This document shows positions 5,001-63,949 of a stretch of DNA of 64,000 nucleotides, one piece after another. This DNA comes from Sphingopyxis sp. QXT-31 (GTDB lineage Bacteria; Pseudomonadota; Alphaproteobacteria; Sphingomonadales; Sphingomonadaceae): positions 3,038,001-3,102,000 of the forward strand of contig NZ_CP019449.1 of NCBI RefSeq assembly GCF_001984035.1. Direction: 5' to 3'. The translations under genes and the position numbers were made by a program. Each line of letters starts with the position of its first letter. Position 1 is the first letter of the stretch. The notes under the pieces are model-generated. The model saw only the letters and a program-made list of their open reading frames with translations, made no database searches and was not told where the DNA came from.

Positions 5001-5567
5001 ATGTTTCATCCCGATCTCGCTCGGCATCCCGACAGCTGTCCCGCCCTAGTTTTGAACGCCGACTATACGCCGCTCAGCTATTACCCGCTCAGCCTGTGGC
5101 CTTGGCAGACCGCGGTCAAGGCGGTGTTCCTCGACCGGGTGACGATCGTCGAGAATTACGAGCGCGAAATCCATTCGCCGACGCGCACGATGCCGATCCC
5201 GAGCGTCATCGCGCTGCGCCAATATGTGAAGCCGTCGCAATATCCGGCCTTCACGCGCTTCAACCTGTTCCTGCGCGACCGGTTTTCGTGCCAATATTGC
5301 GGATCGGGCAAGGACCTGACCTTCGATCATGTCGTGCCGCGCCGGCTGGGCGGGCGCACGACGTGGGAGAACGTCACGACTGCGTGTGCACCGTGCAACC
5401 TCAAGAAGGGCGGGCGCACGCCGCAGCAGGCGCATATGCCGATCCACCGCCAGCCGTGGCGGCCGACTTCGTGGCAGTTGCAGGACAATGGCCGCTGCTT
5501 CCCGCCGGGCTATCTGCACGAAAGCTGGATTGACTGGCTTTACTGGGACGTCGAGCTGGAGGGGTAG
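5001..5567 (+). CDS. HNH endonuclease family protein
   Basis: 188 residues from the ATG at 5001 (MFHPDLARHPD). A GTG at 4956 would add 15 residues and has GGGAAGG very close upstream, so the start is uncertain. The core reads CQYC (about residue 98), then LTFDHVVPRRLGG, TTWENVTTAC and CAPCN: the two CxxC zinc knuckles plus the H-N-H residues of the widely conserved bacterial McrA-like HNH group. These proteins occur as single chromosomal genes in many proteobacteria and have no established role. There are no restriction-modification neighbours, so I do not call it a restriction enzyme. Confidence 0.88.
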   Translation: MFHPDLARHPDSCPALVLNADYTPLSYYPLSLWPWQTAVKAVFLDRVTIVENYEREIHSPTRTMPIPSVIALRQYVKPSQYPAFTRFNLFLRDRFSCQYCGSGKDLTFDHVVPRRLGGRTTWENVTTACAPCNLKKGGRTPQQAHMPIHRQPWRPTSWQLQDNGRCFPPGYLHESWIDWLYWDVELEG

Positions 5568-5587: not shown

Positions 5588-5762
5588 CGTCATTCCCGCG
5601 CATGCGGCAATCCAGCTTTCTTCTTCGTGCCTTTGCGCCTTTTCGCGAAATCCTTCTTTTTTTGTTTCGCGCAAAGACGCAAAGGCGCAAAGAGAAGGGG
5701 CAGAAAGAAGCTGGATTGCTTGGAGAGTCGCGCGCCTCTCCGCGCCCTCCACGGGAATGACG
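5588..5762. repeat. Long imperfect inverted repeat between the HNH and YbaY-like genes
   Basis: The left arm starts GTCATTCCCGCG and continues GCAATCCAGC; the right arm ends GCTGGATTGC ... GGGAATGACG. An inner pair is made of TGCGCCTTTTCGCG-like sequence facing GCGCAAAGACGCAAAGGCGC. CATTCCCG...CCAGC repeats are common intergenic elements in sphingomonads. The repeat ends about 10 bases before the next start codon, so it lies in or at the edge of that gene's leader. Confidence 0.7.
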
Positions 5763-5772
5763 AGGGTAGGAG

Positions 5773-6207
5773 ATGGCCATGCTTCGTTTCGCTGCGGCAC
5801 TTTTGCTCGCCCTGCCCCTGTCGTCCTGCGCCATTACCGGCGAGGACAGCGGCGAGGCGGCGAACCAGTGGGTCACGGTCAGCGGCAGCATCGCCTATCG
5901 CGAGCGGATCGCCTTGCCCCCGGATGCGCAGATCGAGGTGCGCGTCGACGACGTCAGCCTGGCCGACGCGCCGTCCAAGACGATCGCGCGCCAGGCCTTT
6001 GCCGCCGACGGGCAGCAGGTGCCGATTAGCTTCCTGATCCGCTTCGACCGCGGCGCGATCGAACCCCGGCACAGCTATGCGGTGGCGGCGCGGATCACCG
6101 GCGCCGACGGGAAGCTGATGTTCATCACCGACACGCGGCACAGCCTCGACGTCGGCGCCGGGTCGGAGGTCGACATGGGGACCTTGGGGCTGGTGAAGAC
6201 GCGCTGA
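5773..6207 (+). CDS. YbaY-family lipoprotein
   Basis: 144 residues. The N-terminus has a hydrophobic signal ending LALPLSSC, a type II signal peptidase lipobox with Cys at residue 19. The mature part contains VTVSGSIAYRERIALPPDAQ and VRVDDVSLADAPSKTIARQ, then IPIRF-like (PISFLIRFD) and HSYAVAARI. This is the beta-sandwich pattern of YbaY / DUF306-adjacent type III secretion-chaperonin-like lipoproteins, which bind no known ligand. The protein is likely anchored to the outer membrane. The start has GGTAGGAGATGGCC upstream: the GGAG motif lies 7-9 bases before the second ATG of the GCCATGCTT/ATGGCCATG pair, so MLRF... is a possible alternative start. Confidence 0.78.
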   Translation: MAMLRFAAALLLALPLSSCAITGEDSGEAANQWVTVSGSIAYRERIALPPDAQIEVRVDDVSLADAPSKTIARQAFAADGQQVPISFLIRFDRGAIEPRHSYAVAARITGADGKLMFITDTRHSLDVGAGSEVDMGTLGLVKTR

Positions 6208-9823: not shown

Positions 9824-9956
9824 CTCACCCTCCCCTTCAGGGGAGGGCAGCGAGACTTGGCAGCTTGCTGCCATAGTCGCAGCGGGTGGGGGCCAGACAC
9901 CTTGCGCAAGGCGTCTGGCCCCCACCCCAACCCCTCCCCTGAAGGGGAGGGGCTTT
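9824..9956. repeat. Composite palindromic repeat upstream of the lipoprotein gene
   Basis: It contains CCTCCCCTTCAGGGGAGG, GGCAGCTTGCTGCC, a long dyad in which GGGGGCCAGAC (9888-9898) pairs with GTCTGGCCCCC about 15 bases later, and CCCCTCCCCTGAAGGGGAGGGG followed by TTTTG. It shares modules with the clusters at 9,053 and 11,944. Confidence 0.75.
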
Positions 9957-55513: not shown

Positions 55514-55711
55514 TCATTGACGCGTGCGTTCGATTTCTTCCGCCAGCCGGTGGATGGCGCCTTTAGCCCAAATCGCGACCCTCGCGTCGCTGTCACTTTC
55601 CAGCTGATCTAGGAGAGGCATCTTGCCCGCGAGTATTCGTGCCGGCCCGACTTCGAGCTTTGATCTAGCCAGAGCGCACAAGCGCTCGCAGTTGCCCCGC
55701 TTAGTCGGCAC
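55514..55711 (-). CDS. Small protein coupled to AbiEii, unknown
   Basis: 65 residues if started at the GTG at 55,711, which overlaps the last codons of the AbiEii gene (GTG CCG ACT AA). Frame MPTKRGNCERLCALARSKLE...PLLDQLESDSDARVAIWAKGAIHRLAEEIERTRQ. The last 30 residues look like an amphipathic helix pair, similar to the end of HEAT-like repeats. No family is recognised. A strong ribosome site is lacking, so it depends on coupling if it is real. It may be a third component of the AbiE locus or the tail of a lost gene. Confidence 0.35.
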   Translation of the reverse strand: MPTKRGNCERLCALARSKLEVGPARILAGKMPLLDQLESDSDARVAIWAKGAIHRLAEEIERTRQ

Positions 55712-56597
55712 TCCAAGGCAAGGACCGGTAAAATCCGTCGACGGTCGCAAAGCATTCGTCGAAATCGGGCAGTTCGCCGATTTCGATTGCGAGGGTATCC
55801 CATTCCTTGCGCGCGCGTTCCTTTATTTCGGTCCGCGAAAGCGCCTCCGAATCGGGTTCGATCGCCCGCGCCTTGCTCTTCTCGCAGAGCGTGTCCAGCA
55901 AGGTCTGTTTCTCCTCCTCGTCGAACGTGAAACAGGCCAGTAGCGAAGCGATGTCATATATGTCCTGTCGGCGATTACGATTGCGGACCTCCTGCTGGAG
56001 GAGCGCACGCAGCTTTTCGGCGATCAGATCGATGAGCGAATAGGCGCGGAAAGTCTCGCCGGTCTCGCCGAGCCAGACGAGCTGGATCGCGTTCACCGGT
56101 TCGCGAAAACTGATATCGACGTCGAGGATCGTCGGCGAGCGCCCCACGCGAAACTTCGCCTCTTGCGGAGCGCCGCGCCGCGCGTAACCGATCCGCAAGC
56201 TAAGCGCAGGTCCCCGGGCTTTCTCGAACATCTGTTCCGACGGCATGAAGCGCGAGCTTTGCACCGCGCACAGGAGGTCAGGATAGCCGAGGCGCGCGGC
56301 GGCGCGGGGGAGAGCTTCGCTGAGCGCGGCCTTCAGCGCGTCGACGGTTTCGCTCGTCGGATCGCTAATCGCGGTGAGATCGACATCGCCCGTCTGGCGC
56401 GGGCTCTCATAGACGACCCCCATCAGGATGCCGCCCTTGAGGAAGATTTCGTGCGCGAAGGGCGTCGTCATCCCGAGCGCGGCGAGGAATATCTCGGTGA
56501 CCTGCCGTTCGAGATAGGCTTCGGGATCGGCTTTCGCCTTGTCGATCCATTGGTCGATGTCGACGGTACAGCTTTCGATTTCGACCGGGTCAGACAT
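55701..56597 (-). CDS. AbiEii toxin, nucleotidyltransferase of the type IV toxin-antitoxin / abortive infection system
   Basis: 298 residues from the ATG at 56,597 (MSDPVEIES), which overlaps the antitoxin stop by eight bases. The four motifs of AbiEii/AbiGii nucleotidyltransferases are visible: FLKGGILMG with RQTGDVDLT (Asp71 and Asp73, the metal pair), a third acidic site LDVDIS near 159-161, and the C-terminal IAEKLRALLQ...RRQDIYDI. Known role: GTP-dependent toxin that halts growth during phage infection, in a non-contact (type IV) pair with AbiEi. The catalytic residues appear intact. Confidence 0.92.
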   Translation of the reverse strand: MSDPVEIESCTVDIDQWIDKAKADPEAYLERQVTEIFLAALGMTTPFAHEIFLKGGILMGVVYESPRQTGDVDLTAISDPTSETVDALKAALSEALPRAAARLGYPDLLCAVQSSRFMPSEQMFEKARGPALSLRIGYARRGAPQEAKFRVGRSPTILDVDISFREPVNAIQLVWLGETGETFRAYSLIDLIAEKLRALLQQEVRNRNRRQDIYDIASLLACFTFDEEEKQTLLDTLCEKSKARAIEPDSEALSRTEIKERARKEWDTLAIEIGELPDFDECFATVDGFYRSLPWSAD

Positions 56598-57510
56598 TGA
56601 GCGACAGCATCCACGTCTCCGAAAACTCGCTGGCGAAGGGTTCGCCGGCGACGAGCACGCGGCTCGACCCGCGCTGCGCAAGCGCCGACCACGCCGCGAC
56701 CCGGGAATCTGTAACGCCCAAACGTTCGTCGAGGATATAGCCGGCGCGGACCTTGAGGATCGGCTTAGGCGCTCCGTCGATCGTCGTCAGGACATCGTCT
56801 AGATAGGTGCGGACATGCTCCGACCAGATGTCCAATATATGGGCCATGCCCCCACAGCGCGCAGGCTCGTCCAGCATATCGAGGAAGGTCTGGCCGATCG
56901 TCGCGATCCGCGCGAGGGTGCCCTTGATCGCAACATGCTTCCCCACATGCTTGGTCGAAAGTATCTCGAGGCGACGGCCGCGGACGCTCGCCGGATGGCG
57001 CACCGCCGTGGGCCGCTCGGCGGGACCATTGAACCGATCGAGATCATTGTCGAAGCGGATATTGCCGCTTGGCGCCTCGGCCTTGACGAGCTGCCGCTTC
57101 AGCGCGGCGGTGGGCTCGGTCAGAAACAGCGCTTCGGGGCGACGATTGGTGAGACCGTAGCGCTGCATCGCCGACATATGCGAAATATAGCAATAGGGAT
57201 CGACCGAGCAGGCGATATCTTCGGCGGCGGCGTCGGACTTGCTCATCACACGGTAGAGCGGATGATAGTCATTATCGCTACGGATGATCCCCTCGGCCAC
57301 GAGCAACGCGCGCGTACGGCGGAAAATATCGTGGTTCGGCTTGTCGCCGCGCAGATAACGCGCGTCGCCGTCCCTATAAATGCGTGTCAGGATAGCGAAA
57401 ATCTCGTAGTTTGAGAGGACCGGCTTTTCCTGAGCGTCCAAACGACGCGCCAGCGATTCGGCAAGATTGGTCATCCGCTTGCGCAGCTGAAAGGGCCGGA
57501 CCGCTTCCAT
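56590..57510 (-). CDS. AbiEi-type antitoxin and repressor
   Basis: 306 residues from the ATG at 57,510 with AGGAGG five bases upstream. The N-terminal half (MTNLAESLARRL...NYEIFAILTRIYRDGDARYL) fits a winged-helix DNA-binding domain; the middle has SHMSAMQRYGLTNRRPEALFLTEP, a typical AbiEi segment, and the C-terminal domain (GPAERPTAVRH...LDMLDEPARCGGM) resembles the AbiEi antitoxin part. Known role: neutralises AbiEii activity and represses the operon by binding inverted repeats. The repeats in front (57,519-57,650) fit this closely. Confidence 0.85.
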   Translation of the reverse strand: MEAVRPFQLRKRMTNLAESLARRLDAQEKPVLSNYEIFAILTRIYRDGDARYLRGDKPNHDIFRRTRALLVAEGIIRSDNDYHPLYRVMSKSDAAAEDIACSVDPYCYISHMSAMQRYGLTNRRPEALFLTEPTAALKRQLVKAEAPSGNIRFDNDLDRFNGPAERPTAVRHPASVRGRRLEILSTKHVGKHVAIKGTLARIATIGQTFLDMLDEPARCGGMAHILDIWSEHVRTYLDDVLTTIDGAPKPILKVRAGYILDERLGVTDSRVAAWSALAQRGSSRVLVAGEPFASEFSETWMLSLNV

Positions 57511-57518
57511 TTTTACCT

Positions 57519-57563
57519 CCTACCCCATACCCTATGTCCTAAGGACATAGGGTATGGGGTAGG
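57519..57563. promoter_or_regulatory. AbiE operator, inverted repeat 1 (22-bp arms)
   Basis: Arms 57,519-57,540 and 57,542-57,563 are exact complements around a single base (57,541). The core is CTATGTCCT-A-AGGACATAG. The right side covers the predicted minus-strand -10 box and the left end reaches into the AGGAGG ribosome site of the antitoxin gene, so binding here would block transcription, and the RNA hairpin could mask the ribosome site. Confidence 0.85.
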
Positions 57564-57577
57564 ATATGAAAAGTCAA
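57549..57577 (-). promoter_or_regulatory. Predicted promoter of abiEi-abiEii
   Basis: TTGACT (57,577-57,572), 17-base spacer, TACCCT (57,554-57,549) on the minus strand; the -10 box is inside inverted repeat 1. Confidence 0.6.
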
Positions 57578-57599
57578 GTCTCCCGCCGAGCTTGACTTT
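57570..57599. repeat. Central inverted repeat carrying two divergent -35 boxes
   Basis: AAAGTCAAG (57,570-57,578), 12 bases, CTTGACTTT (57,591-57,599), exact complements. Each arm contains TTGACT on opposite strands. The centre (57,584.5) coincides with the midpoint of the two flanking palindromes. Confidence 0.85.
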
Positions 57600-57619
57600 C
57601 ACTCAGTAGCGTTTATCCT
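57592..57619 (+). promoter_or_regulatory. Predicted rightward promoter opposite the AbiE promoter
   Basis: TTGACT (57,592-57,597), 16-base spacer, TATCCT (57,614-57,619), inside inverted repeat 2. Downstream on the plus strand only a 12-codon frame (ATG at 57,660) is found before convergent genes, so it may be the promoter of a small RNA or a relic of a lost divergent gene. Confidence 0.45.
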
Positions 57620-57650
57620 ATGTCCTTAGGACATAGGATAAACGCTACTG
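57604..57650. promoter_or_regulatory. AbiE operator, inverted repeat 2 (23-bp arms)
   Basis: Arms 57,604-57,626 and 57,628-57,650 are exact complements around one base (57,627). The core CTATGTCCT-T-AGGACATAG is the same as in repeat 1; the outer parts differ (CAGTAGCGTTTA here, CCTACCCCATAC there). The two centres are 86 bases apart, about eight helical turns. Confidence 0.85.
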
Positions 57651-62800: not shown

Positions 62801-63949
62801 GCAACAGGAGAAACCGCCCGCATGATCTTCGATCTCTACTTGATCGGACCGGTCGGCACCCAACCGCTCGGTATCACCAAGATCTCCCAGTGGCTCAATA
62901 GCAATGGCTACAAGCTTCGCGGCAAGAAATTCCACGTCTCCAACGTGCAGGCGATCCTTCGCAACACTGCCTACATCGGCGTCGCTTTCTATAACAAACG
63001 CGACTCCAAGACCGGCGAGCAGCGACCTGAAGAAGAATGGATACCGATTCCGGTGCCGCCACTAATCGCCACCGAGGATTTCGAGGCGGTACAGGTTCGG
63101 CTCGTCGACCGCCGTCCGACCGCGCGCGCCGCGCGCGTCACAACGACAAACAATCTGCTGATCGGCATCACCATCTGCGGTTGCGGAGGCGACGGCTGTG
63201 GCGGCGGGATGACGACATCCACCGGGAAGAGTGGCCAGTATAAATATTATGCCTGTTCCAACCGTGCCCGGGCCGGACCCAGCATCTGTAATGGCCGGCG
63301 AATGCCTATGCACAAGCTCGACGAGATCGTGCTCAATGCTCTCGAAGAACGACTGCTCACTCCTGAGCGCCTTCACGATCTACTGTCGAGCTGGCTCGAT
63401 CATGCCCTTCACGCCACAGAATCGCGACGTGAGAAATTGCGGCAACTCCGGACGCGCAAGACGTCTCTCGGCGCAGGACTCGAACGGCTACTCGACCTTG
63501 TGGCCGAGGGCCACCTTACCGCTTCCGATCCACGCTTTGCCAGGAAGCATGCCGATCAGAAAGCACAGCTCTCTCAAGTCGAGGCCGACATCGTGCTGCT
63601 CGAGCGGCAGTTGGCGAATTCCGAGAAGCGCATCACGCCGGAATTGATCGACCGATTCGCAAAGCTGATGCGCGAACGGCTCCGCGAAAGCGATCCAGCT
63701 CTCCGACAATATTATGTCCGCAGCATCGTGGGCCGCGTGGAAGTGGGCGACGCGGAAATACGGATCATGGGAACCACGAAAGCCCTCGAACACGCCATAG
63801 GGCGCGTCGGGGCAAAACCACATTTCCCAGTTCCCAACATCGAACGGGAATGGTGCACCCGAAGGGATTCGAACCCCTGGCCTCTGCCTTCGGAGGGGGT
63901 ACTAGCATGTTTGCGCCAGCCTACGCCAGAGCAAGTTTTTCTAGCCTAA
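62801..63949 (+). pseudogene. 5'-truncated serine recombinase
   Basis: From the ATG at 62,822 (MIFDLYLIGPVG) 375 residues are readable, but the sequence starts in the middle of the Recombinase domain; the catalytic resolvase domain (about 150 residues with the nucleophilic Ser) is absent. In-frame codons just upstream (GETAR) still match before a stop at about 62,797. What remains: ILRNTAYIGVAFYNKRDS (recombinase domain), a zinc ribbon with CGCGGDGCGGG and YYACSNRARAG, and a coiled coil at about residues 190-290. The end WCTRRDSNPWPLPSEG is read from a tRNA fragment on the other strand. No recombination activity is expected. Confidence 0.85.
63851..63895 (-). tRNA. tRNA-Arg(CCG) 3' half, likely attachment-site remnant
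   Basis: On the minus strand the sequence runs from the anticodon loop CTCCGAA (63,895-63,889) through the GGCAG stem, the T arm (GGGGTTCGAATCCC) and the acceptor end CGGGTGC-A-CCA (63,861-63,851). Anticodon CCG decodes CGG, Arg. The 5' half (acceptor GCACCCG and D arm) is absent, and the 5' anticodon stem is not complementary. Such 45-base 3' halves are typical att sites left by tyrosine integrases that insert in tRNA genes. The element would extend to the right, beyond the window. Confidence 0.75.

Follow-up and report, generated by a model that had tools for sequence, protein, structure and literature searches.

Perfectly paired palindromes with a conserved core and nearly free arms in front of the abiE genes of Sphingopyxis sp. 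QXT-31 and related loci

The window analysed here, a stretch of 64,000 nucleotides from Sphingopyxis sp. QXT-31 (NZ_CP019449.1), carries a pair of minus-strand genes of the abiE type, preceded by two long palindromes. The genes, the palindromes and the predicted promoter boxes are listed below in coordinates of the window.

55701..56597, minus strand: abiEii, nucleotidyltransferase toxin; the in-frame stretch overlaps the end of abiEi (PF08843, E 5.7e-29; PADLOC PDLC02306, E 4.4e-108)
56590..57510, minus strand: abiEi, antitoxin of 306 aa and presumed repressor
57516..57521, minus strand: AGGAGG, a Shine-Dalgarno-like sequence of abiEi that straddles the left palindrome's end (read directly)
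57518-57564, no strand: left (proximal) palindrome with centre base 57541 between the arms 57518-57540 and 57542-57564; predicted abiE operator that spans the -10 box and the start region
57549..57554, minus strand: weak -10 box TACCCT of the predicted abiE promoter, within the left palindrome, 17-nt spacer (by eye)
57570-57599, no strand: central inverted repeat, AAAGTCAAG (57570-57578) and CTTGACTTT (57591-57599)
57572..57577, minus strand: predicted abiE promoter, -35 box TTGACT, lying 30 nt ahead of the left centre
57592..57597, plus strand: -35 box TTGACT of a second, outward promoter (promoter scan)
57604-57650, no strand: right (distal) palindrome with centre base 57627 between the arms 57604-57626 and 57628-57650; predicted as a second operator
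57614..57619, plus strand: -10 box TATCCT of the second promoter, within the right palindrome, 16-nt spacer (promoter scan)

The AbiEi protein combines an N-terminal winged helix-turn-helix with an AbiEi C-terminal domain, and the gene for the AbiEii nucleotidyltransferase toxin adjoins its gene with overlapping coordinates, as in type IV toxin-antitoxin systems of the AbiE kind. The assignment of the pair as AbiEi/AbiEii in the initial annotation was borne out by Pfam, by PADLOC and by a fold comparison, which gave an AbiEi match; a profile search of PDB sequences gave no AbiEi match, and none of 30 members matched in NCBIfam. Judged by its domains, abiEi-abiEii is a bona fide abiE operon.

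The coordinates agree with the initial description of three perfect inverted repeats that share one centre near 57584, the outer centres (57541 and 57627) lying 86 bp apart. The outer arms, put at 22 and 23 bp, are indeed perfect, but both palindromes have arms of 23 bp. As had been noted, the two have a common core and different outer arms, and the central repeat supplies a TTGACT on each strand; this repeat is best read as two divergent -35 boxes. A -10 box had been placed within each outer palindrome. For the right one, the promoter scan concurs (9 of 12 consensus matches; one site against 0.3 expected from shuffles), whereas the left box is weak, was picked out by eye and is absent from the scan output. 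We found no ORF of at least 60 aa starting on the plus strand between 57650 and 57812 that could be the product of the outward promoter.

These palindromes are the two longest perfect inverted repeats in the window (arm of at least 11, loop of at most 8), the next having 14-bp arms. The core CTATGTCCT-N-AGGACATAG, allowing up to 3 mismatches, occurs twice in the 64-kb window and in none of 100 shuffles, and TATGTCCTNAGGACATA, with up to 2 mismatches, is found at just these two sites in the 4.29-Mb genome. Folding energies of the palindromes are -25.2 and -23.9 kcal/mol, and for each none of 200 shuffles was as stable. At this locus, inverted repeats overlap the abiE promoter, as in AbiEi-autoregulated operators; binding of AbiEi to promoter inverted repeats and autoregulation have been published for homologues, as the accessible portions of three papers report (PMC3985639, PMC7319586, PMC11062541). 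The palindromes here are very probably AbiEi operators.

We searched for relatives of this AbiEi and found them in 5 of 80 genus, 6 of 397 family, 7 of 396 order, 15 of 385 class and 6 of 398 phylum genomes; these counts take in the window's own genome and some weak, distant matches. Relatives were also present in 150 PLSDB plasmid records, from which 25 loci were taken for study, and DNA searches added three plasmid loci and one E. coli plasmid locus. Palindromes were seen in 43 of the 45 family loci first examined (numbered with an L below); the other two are L004, which ends 41 bp upstream of the gene, and L016, whose variant site has perfect arms of 25 bp around a 3-base centre. The core itself occurred in six of 80 genus genomes, comprising all five with AbiEi and one further genome with the core alone, and in four of 254 family genomes, of which three have AbiEi and the fourth a probable remnant. 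The initial annotation had suggested that the core would be a mobile repeat if it occurred at many loci without abiE genes. Scans of the genome itself and of its relatives gave no such picture: they show an association with AbiEi genes, as the annotation had supposed, and largely refute a dispersed repeat. Single copies without AbiEi, at L079 and on the IMG/VR contig L072, are what a mobile or dispersed palindromic repeat unrelated to AbiEi would predict, but given the genome counts above we hold such a repeat to be extremely improbable. On the latter contig (IMGVR_UViG_3300028822_000310), which looks phage-like by eye, a perfect palindrome with 19-bp arms and the same core is centred at 5490; tblastn detected no AbiEi relative on it, and the palindrome is possibly a phage-borne operator copy. 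In viral contigs, 23 stretches matched a peptide pattern and none was confirmed as an AbiEi relative, and phage records gave no match.

Besides their link to AbiEi, the palindromes of this family combine a conserved core with perfectly paired, covarying arms of nearly free sequence. Searching 52 family loci for exact TCCT-N-AGGA cores, with no symmetry filter, yielded 89 cores, 87 of them perfect over 18 pairs; one more, at the edge of L037, was not scoreable. The two imperfect cores were that of L064 (12 of 18 pairs) and one at position 1865 of L013 (9 of 18), which lies far from the operators of that locus; chance cores are about as many as expected. Once the genus and family loci had been added, a scan for palindromes with a central TCC and 14 or more of 16 pairs gave 87 palindromes in 49 loci, with no mismatch in the first 18 pairs (1566 pairs); these sites include near-duplicates (L063, probably LC363 again, shares its arms with L010), and L067, a duplicate of L007, was left out. 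Across 70 distinct sites with 18 pairs each, all 1260 cells were Watson-Crick pairs, 485 had changed on both sides and none on one side only, and there was no G-T or G-U. The covariation score of these sites was 0.946, compared with 0.161 (sd 0.011) after shuffling and at most 0.181 after sliding; kinship among the sequences inflates such scores, and the slid controls and the absence of one-sided states are independent of it.

In 61 distinct arms, the TCCT beside the centre was invariant (TCC being part of the filter) and the fifth base was G in 58, with a core consensus of TCCT-N-AGGA, usually GTCCT-N-AGGAC. Positions 7-10 of these arms resemble a -10 box, positions 11-22 carry 0.03-0.16 bits, and pairing, 100% up to position 18, is no better than chance by position 24. 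As a control, operator-type sites with 14 or more of 18 pairs (a threshold that L064 does not reach) were compared with other near-palindromes of the same 301,567 bases: 79 of 79 distinct sites of the first kind were perfect over 18 pairs and 3 of 47 of the second, and two of these three, at L016 and L031, precede AbiEi-type genes. As far as these sequences go, long perfect symmetry, kept while the arm letters change, is the rule in this AbiEi subfamily, a point that the initial annotation had missed. Given that the arm letters are nearly free yet self-complementary, the conserved property of the arms is taken to be pairing within a DNA strand. The reading that we favour, with about as much confidence as doubt, is that the operator has been selected for self-pairing, as a DNA hairpin or cruciform, together with its core motif.

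We compared these sites with known AbiEi operators as described in the accessible portions of the papers cited. The S. agalactiae abiE operator is one repeat pair with a 3-bp gap and four mismatches in 23 bp, the outer 11 bp being perfect (PMC3985639, PMC7319586), whereas here there are usually two palindromes with a 1-base centre, no mismatches, a conserved centre and a nearly free outer arm; the S. agalactiae pattern of a perfect outer repeat, an N3 centre and imperfect arms is not seen. That operator works despite its four mismatches, so some AbiEi proteins can do without perfect pairing. The M. tuberculosis Rv2827c operator consists of two pairs of 23-bp repeats; gaps within a pair are 13 bp, 4 bp separate the pairs, and the repeats are related in sequence and graded in affinity (PMC7319586), in contrast to the 1-base gap, the perfect pairs and the 69-152 bp between centres found here. 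In the abiE system of an S. suis ICE, AbiEi binds the palindromic IR1 and IR2 and represses, which is the same kind of arrangement, but sequence-free perfect arms are not described in the accessible part of that report (PMC11062541). Nor did we find any description of such arms in the open-licence literature searched, as far as its texts were accessible. The site here is of the AbiEi inverted-repeat operator kind and represents a distinct variant, centre-conserved and with perfect, nearly sequence-free arms.

A conventional operator, in which AbiEi subunits contact the whole arm with a weak, shape-based preference and the symmetry merely reflects equal half-sites, would agree with published AbiEi sites of about 23 bp per repeat, as given in the accessible part of one paper (PMC7319586), and with arm identity at positions 11-18, which is slightly higher within a locus than between loci (0.31-0.42 vs 0.25-0.30). 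However, one protein would then have to read two arms that differ at most outer positions while each is the exact complement of its partner, and a weak readout would tolerate mismatches, of which the 1566 pairs of 87 sites contain none. We therefore regard this explanation as improbable.

Arm lengths in the family are 18-25 bp, with one of 28, and both palindromes have arms of the same length in 14 of 26 non-redundant loci (permutation p 0.0001; mean difference 0.77), a test into which shared ancestry feeds, so that it is not fully independent. Differences greater than 1 occur in L033 (28/23), in L050-L054 (18 proximal, 20-21 distal) and in the L055 group (19-20 distal, 22 proximal). These lengths suggest that arm length tends to be a property of the locus or lineage. 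A near-integral number of helical turns between the outer sites had been proposed as a basis for cooperative binding or looping, but 86 bp correspond to 8.19 turns at 10.5 bp per turn and are therefore not near-integral. Among relatives, phasing was apparent across all 38 two-palindrome loci, near-duplicates included (Rayleigh p 0.008-0.012), and is gone in the 30 non-redundant ones (p 0.16-0.26), whose centres are 69-152 bp apart. Neither phasing nor looping between the two sites is supported. Cooperativity of AbiEi is reportedly the subject of a 2018 paper in J Mol Biol. A single palindrome was present in 11 of 49 loci; in two of these (L009 and L052) the record stops shortly upstream.

Promoter boxes recur at set positions. 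Scoring at least 5 of 6 matches to TTGACA, we found a -35 box 25-31 nt before the centre on the abiEi side of 32 of 38 proximal and 7 of 11 single palindromes, against shuffled-flank expectations of 1.8 and 0.61; the commonest distance was 27 nt (23 of 39). This distance would therefore put the transcription start near the centre and the -10 box in the arm. The box is missing from its usual place at L033-L035, at six other proximal or single sites and at L044; in L034 and L035 the promoter seems, by eye, to lie upstream of the proximal palindrome. The start-site-centred layout is evidently not universal. Because the site is symmetric, promoter direction is set by the side of the -35 box, and by this measure 16 of 38 loci have a distal promoter directed away from abiEi and 11 have one directed towards it, the other 11 showing no recognisable -35 box. 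The bidirectional promoter claimed for the locus thus holds here as sequence, with boxes on opposite strands, but is conserved in part only, the distal promoter being outward in those 16 loci.

The tandem distal promoters of the 11 loci would transcribe the whole proximal palindrome, and here the Shine-Dalgarno-like AGGAGG straddles the palindrome's edge. Both observations would suit an RNA hairpin, that is, a palindrome acting in the transcript, for example by hiding the ribosome-binding site in read-through RNA. Yet no G-U pair occurs in the 1260 cells, and the operon's own transcript, by -35 position, would, in most loci, start near the centre and include no more than half of the palindrome. 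Rfam likewise returned no family at gathering score in the region: its six matches at E up to 1, four of them to microRNA precursor models, were all under their gathering scores. An RNA hairpin is in our view very unlikely.

Related loci were aligned to follow changes in the arms. The outer arms proved less divergent than the flanks in 11 of 12 alignments, as in L003/L010 (8 of 72 positions changed vs 26 of 141) and L050/L054 (4 of 56 vs 95 of 203); the exception is L034/L035 (44 of 72 vs 75 of 162). Where two arm changes separate a pair (n = 6), they are adjacent in four comparisons, a single base apart in one and 11 apart in one (L038/L040), and this last difference is the sum of two single differences, each seen against L045. 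Three or four changes (n = 8) form one solid block of four, in L050/L053, and are mixed or scattered in the rest. The centres change as well. L055 and L061 differ at 2 of 2 centres but at 0 of 64 outer arm, 0 of 20 core and 1 of 163 flank bases, plus two gap columns. Read directly, the distal and proximal centres of these near-identical enterobacterial plasmids are A,T in L055, T,T in L058 and T,A in L061, and the identities alone of about 50 further plasmid records fit more such A/T flips; at one centre, L045 has C where its neighbours have A or T.

Two-sided and clustered changes, loop inversion and a lack of one-sided intermediates are the features of template-switch inverted repeats, and all are present here, the clustering being clear in four of the six two-change comparisons and less so in those with three or four changes. 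Given the arm homogenisation, the centre flips and the clustered changes, the strands are taken to fold back during replication. In the accessible portions of two papers, homogenised inverted repeats share with our sites the arm homogenisation, loop inversion and clustered double changes, but there they reflect a general mutational process, whereas here the core, the location and the within-lineage arm length are conserved across many species (PMC8604942, PMC8794818).

Template switching alone is the main rival to selection for self-pairing: AbiEi would read the central core only, and the arms would be perfect through replication copying, their pairing being without function. The clustering of compensated changes (four of six two-change pairs adjacent; the block of four in L050/L053) and the centre flips between L055 and L061 are expected on this account, and arm homogenisation, spacer inversion and clustered changes are its described marks, according to the accessible part of one paper (PMC8604942). 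It is further favoured by two perfect sites without intact abiE. One, in genome G330 of the same genus (L079, at 5728-5774, also numbered L078), is an orphan perfect palindrome with 23-bp arms, the same core and, by eye, a TTGACC box 30 nt from the centre; this genome gave no AbiEi match, with no abiE nearby. The other, L081, has 23-bp arms and precedes what by eye is an N-terminal AbiEi remnant, for which tblastn gave no significant match to AbiEi. Such orphans could be explained by recent loss of abiE or by upkeep through mutation alone.

On the other hand, template switching alone leaves unexplained why arm length tends to be set per locus with sharp ends and why, in 11 of 12 alignments, the arms change more slowly than the flanks. 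Of the 47 other near-palindromes of this DNA, 44 are imperfect, and of the eight comparisons that involve three or four changes, most show a mixed or scattered pattern instead of a single block. Nor was the site of the decayed L064 operon corrected. This operator (around 1452), the only broken one found, is a fusion, at the core, of a left arm of distal type with a right arm of proximal type, the spacer being lost, which suggests a chimera formed by deletion between two cores; its operon has lost the abiEi start codon, has abiEii cut short and is followed by a transposase-like ORF (by eye). Loss of symmetry in a dead operon applies to L064 only, and not to L079 and L081. Lineage-typical arm length, slower arm change and the imperfection of other palindromes argue for selection, and we consider template switching alone possible but unlikely. 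Our confidence in selected pairing is moderate because L079 and L081 keep perfect sites without intact abiE.

In the favoured reading, AbiEi would bind both palindromes and repress the abiE operon, as has been shown in homologues. The operator of this subfamily is two-layered, with a short, sequence-conserved centre and self-complementary arms of a lineage-typical length of 18-25 bp, and would act at least part-time as an extruded hairpin or cruciform with the core at its tip and its base at a set distance. At most of these promoters the palindrome is centred near the predicted transcription start and holds the -10 box, and for this reason extrusion, or the hold of AbiEi, would shut the promoter. 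The arms would change largely by template switching, a single event copying a block of one arm into the other. What we infer from these patterns is the binding of AbiEi here, the transcription start, hairpin formation in the cell, the mode of repression and the function of the pairing. More tentatively, and with doubts outweighing our confidence, we propose that the AbiEi of this subfamily is a structure-reading repressor, which would recognise the hairpin or cruciform by its TCCT-N-AGGA tip and by how far the tip lies from the base, whatever the letters of the arms. If this is true, the antitoxin would couple toxin expression to supercoiling, replication or single-strandedness, all of which phage infection and plasmid transfer change. 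Operators are normally conserved in sequence, and conservation of symmetry and length instead of letters would mark a binding site differently; the locus family would be a rare natural case for a DNA hairpin or cruciform function in a bacterial promoter. With its many natural compensated arm pairs, centre flips and few decayed copies, it also makes selection for pairing and template switching separable experimentally.

Among 14 further or more distant AbiEi loci, three (L016, L018 and L031) carry palindromes built on other cores, some of them mismatched, and one (L024) carries a single 12-bp repeat; the other ten have none at that threshold. The distant AbiEi genes of L018 and L031 are preceded by several palindromes whose centres are different (TATAGTATATATACTATA; GC-rich) and whose arms vary, some containing a mismatch, and the symmetry rule may be wider and looser in other AbiEi subfamilies.

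Elsewhere in the window, another long near-perfect inverted repeat (9888-9923; 17 of 18 pairs, no gap) lies beside C- and G-rich repeats. Part of a large serine recombinase (62822-63949; PF07508, PF13408) is encoded near the window's end, and the abiE operon may be close to a mobile element. Downstream of abiEii, the Rhodobacterales plasmids of L038, L040 and L045 carry an N-6 DNA methylase gene, and the Enterobacterales plasmids of L051, L052 and L054 carry a serine/threonine or PP2C-type phosphatase gene.
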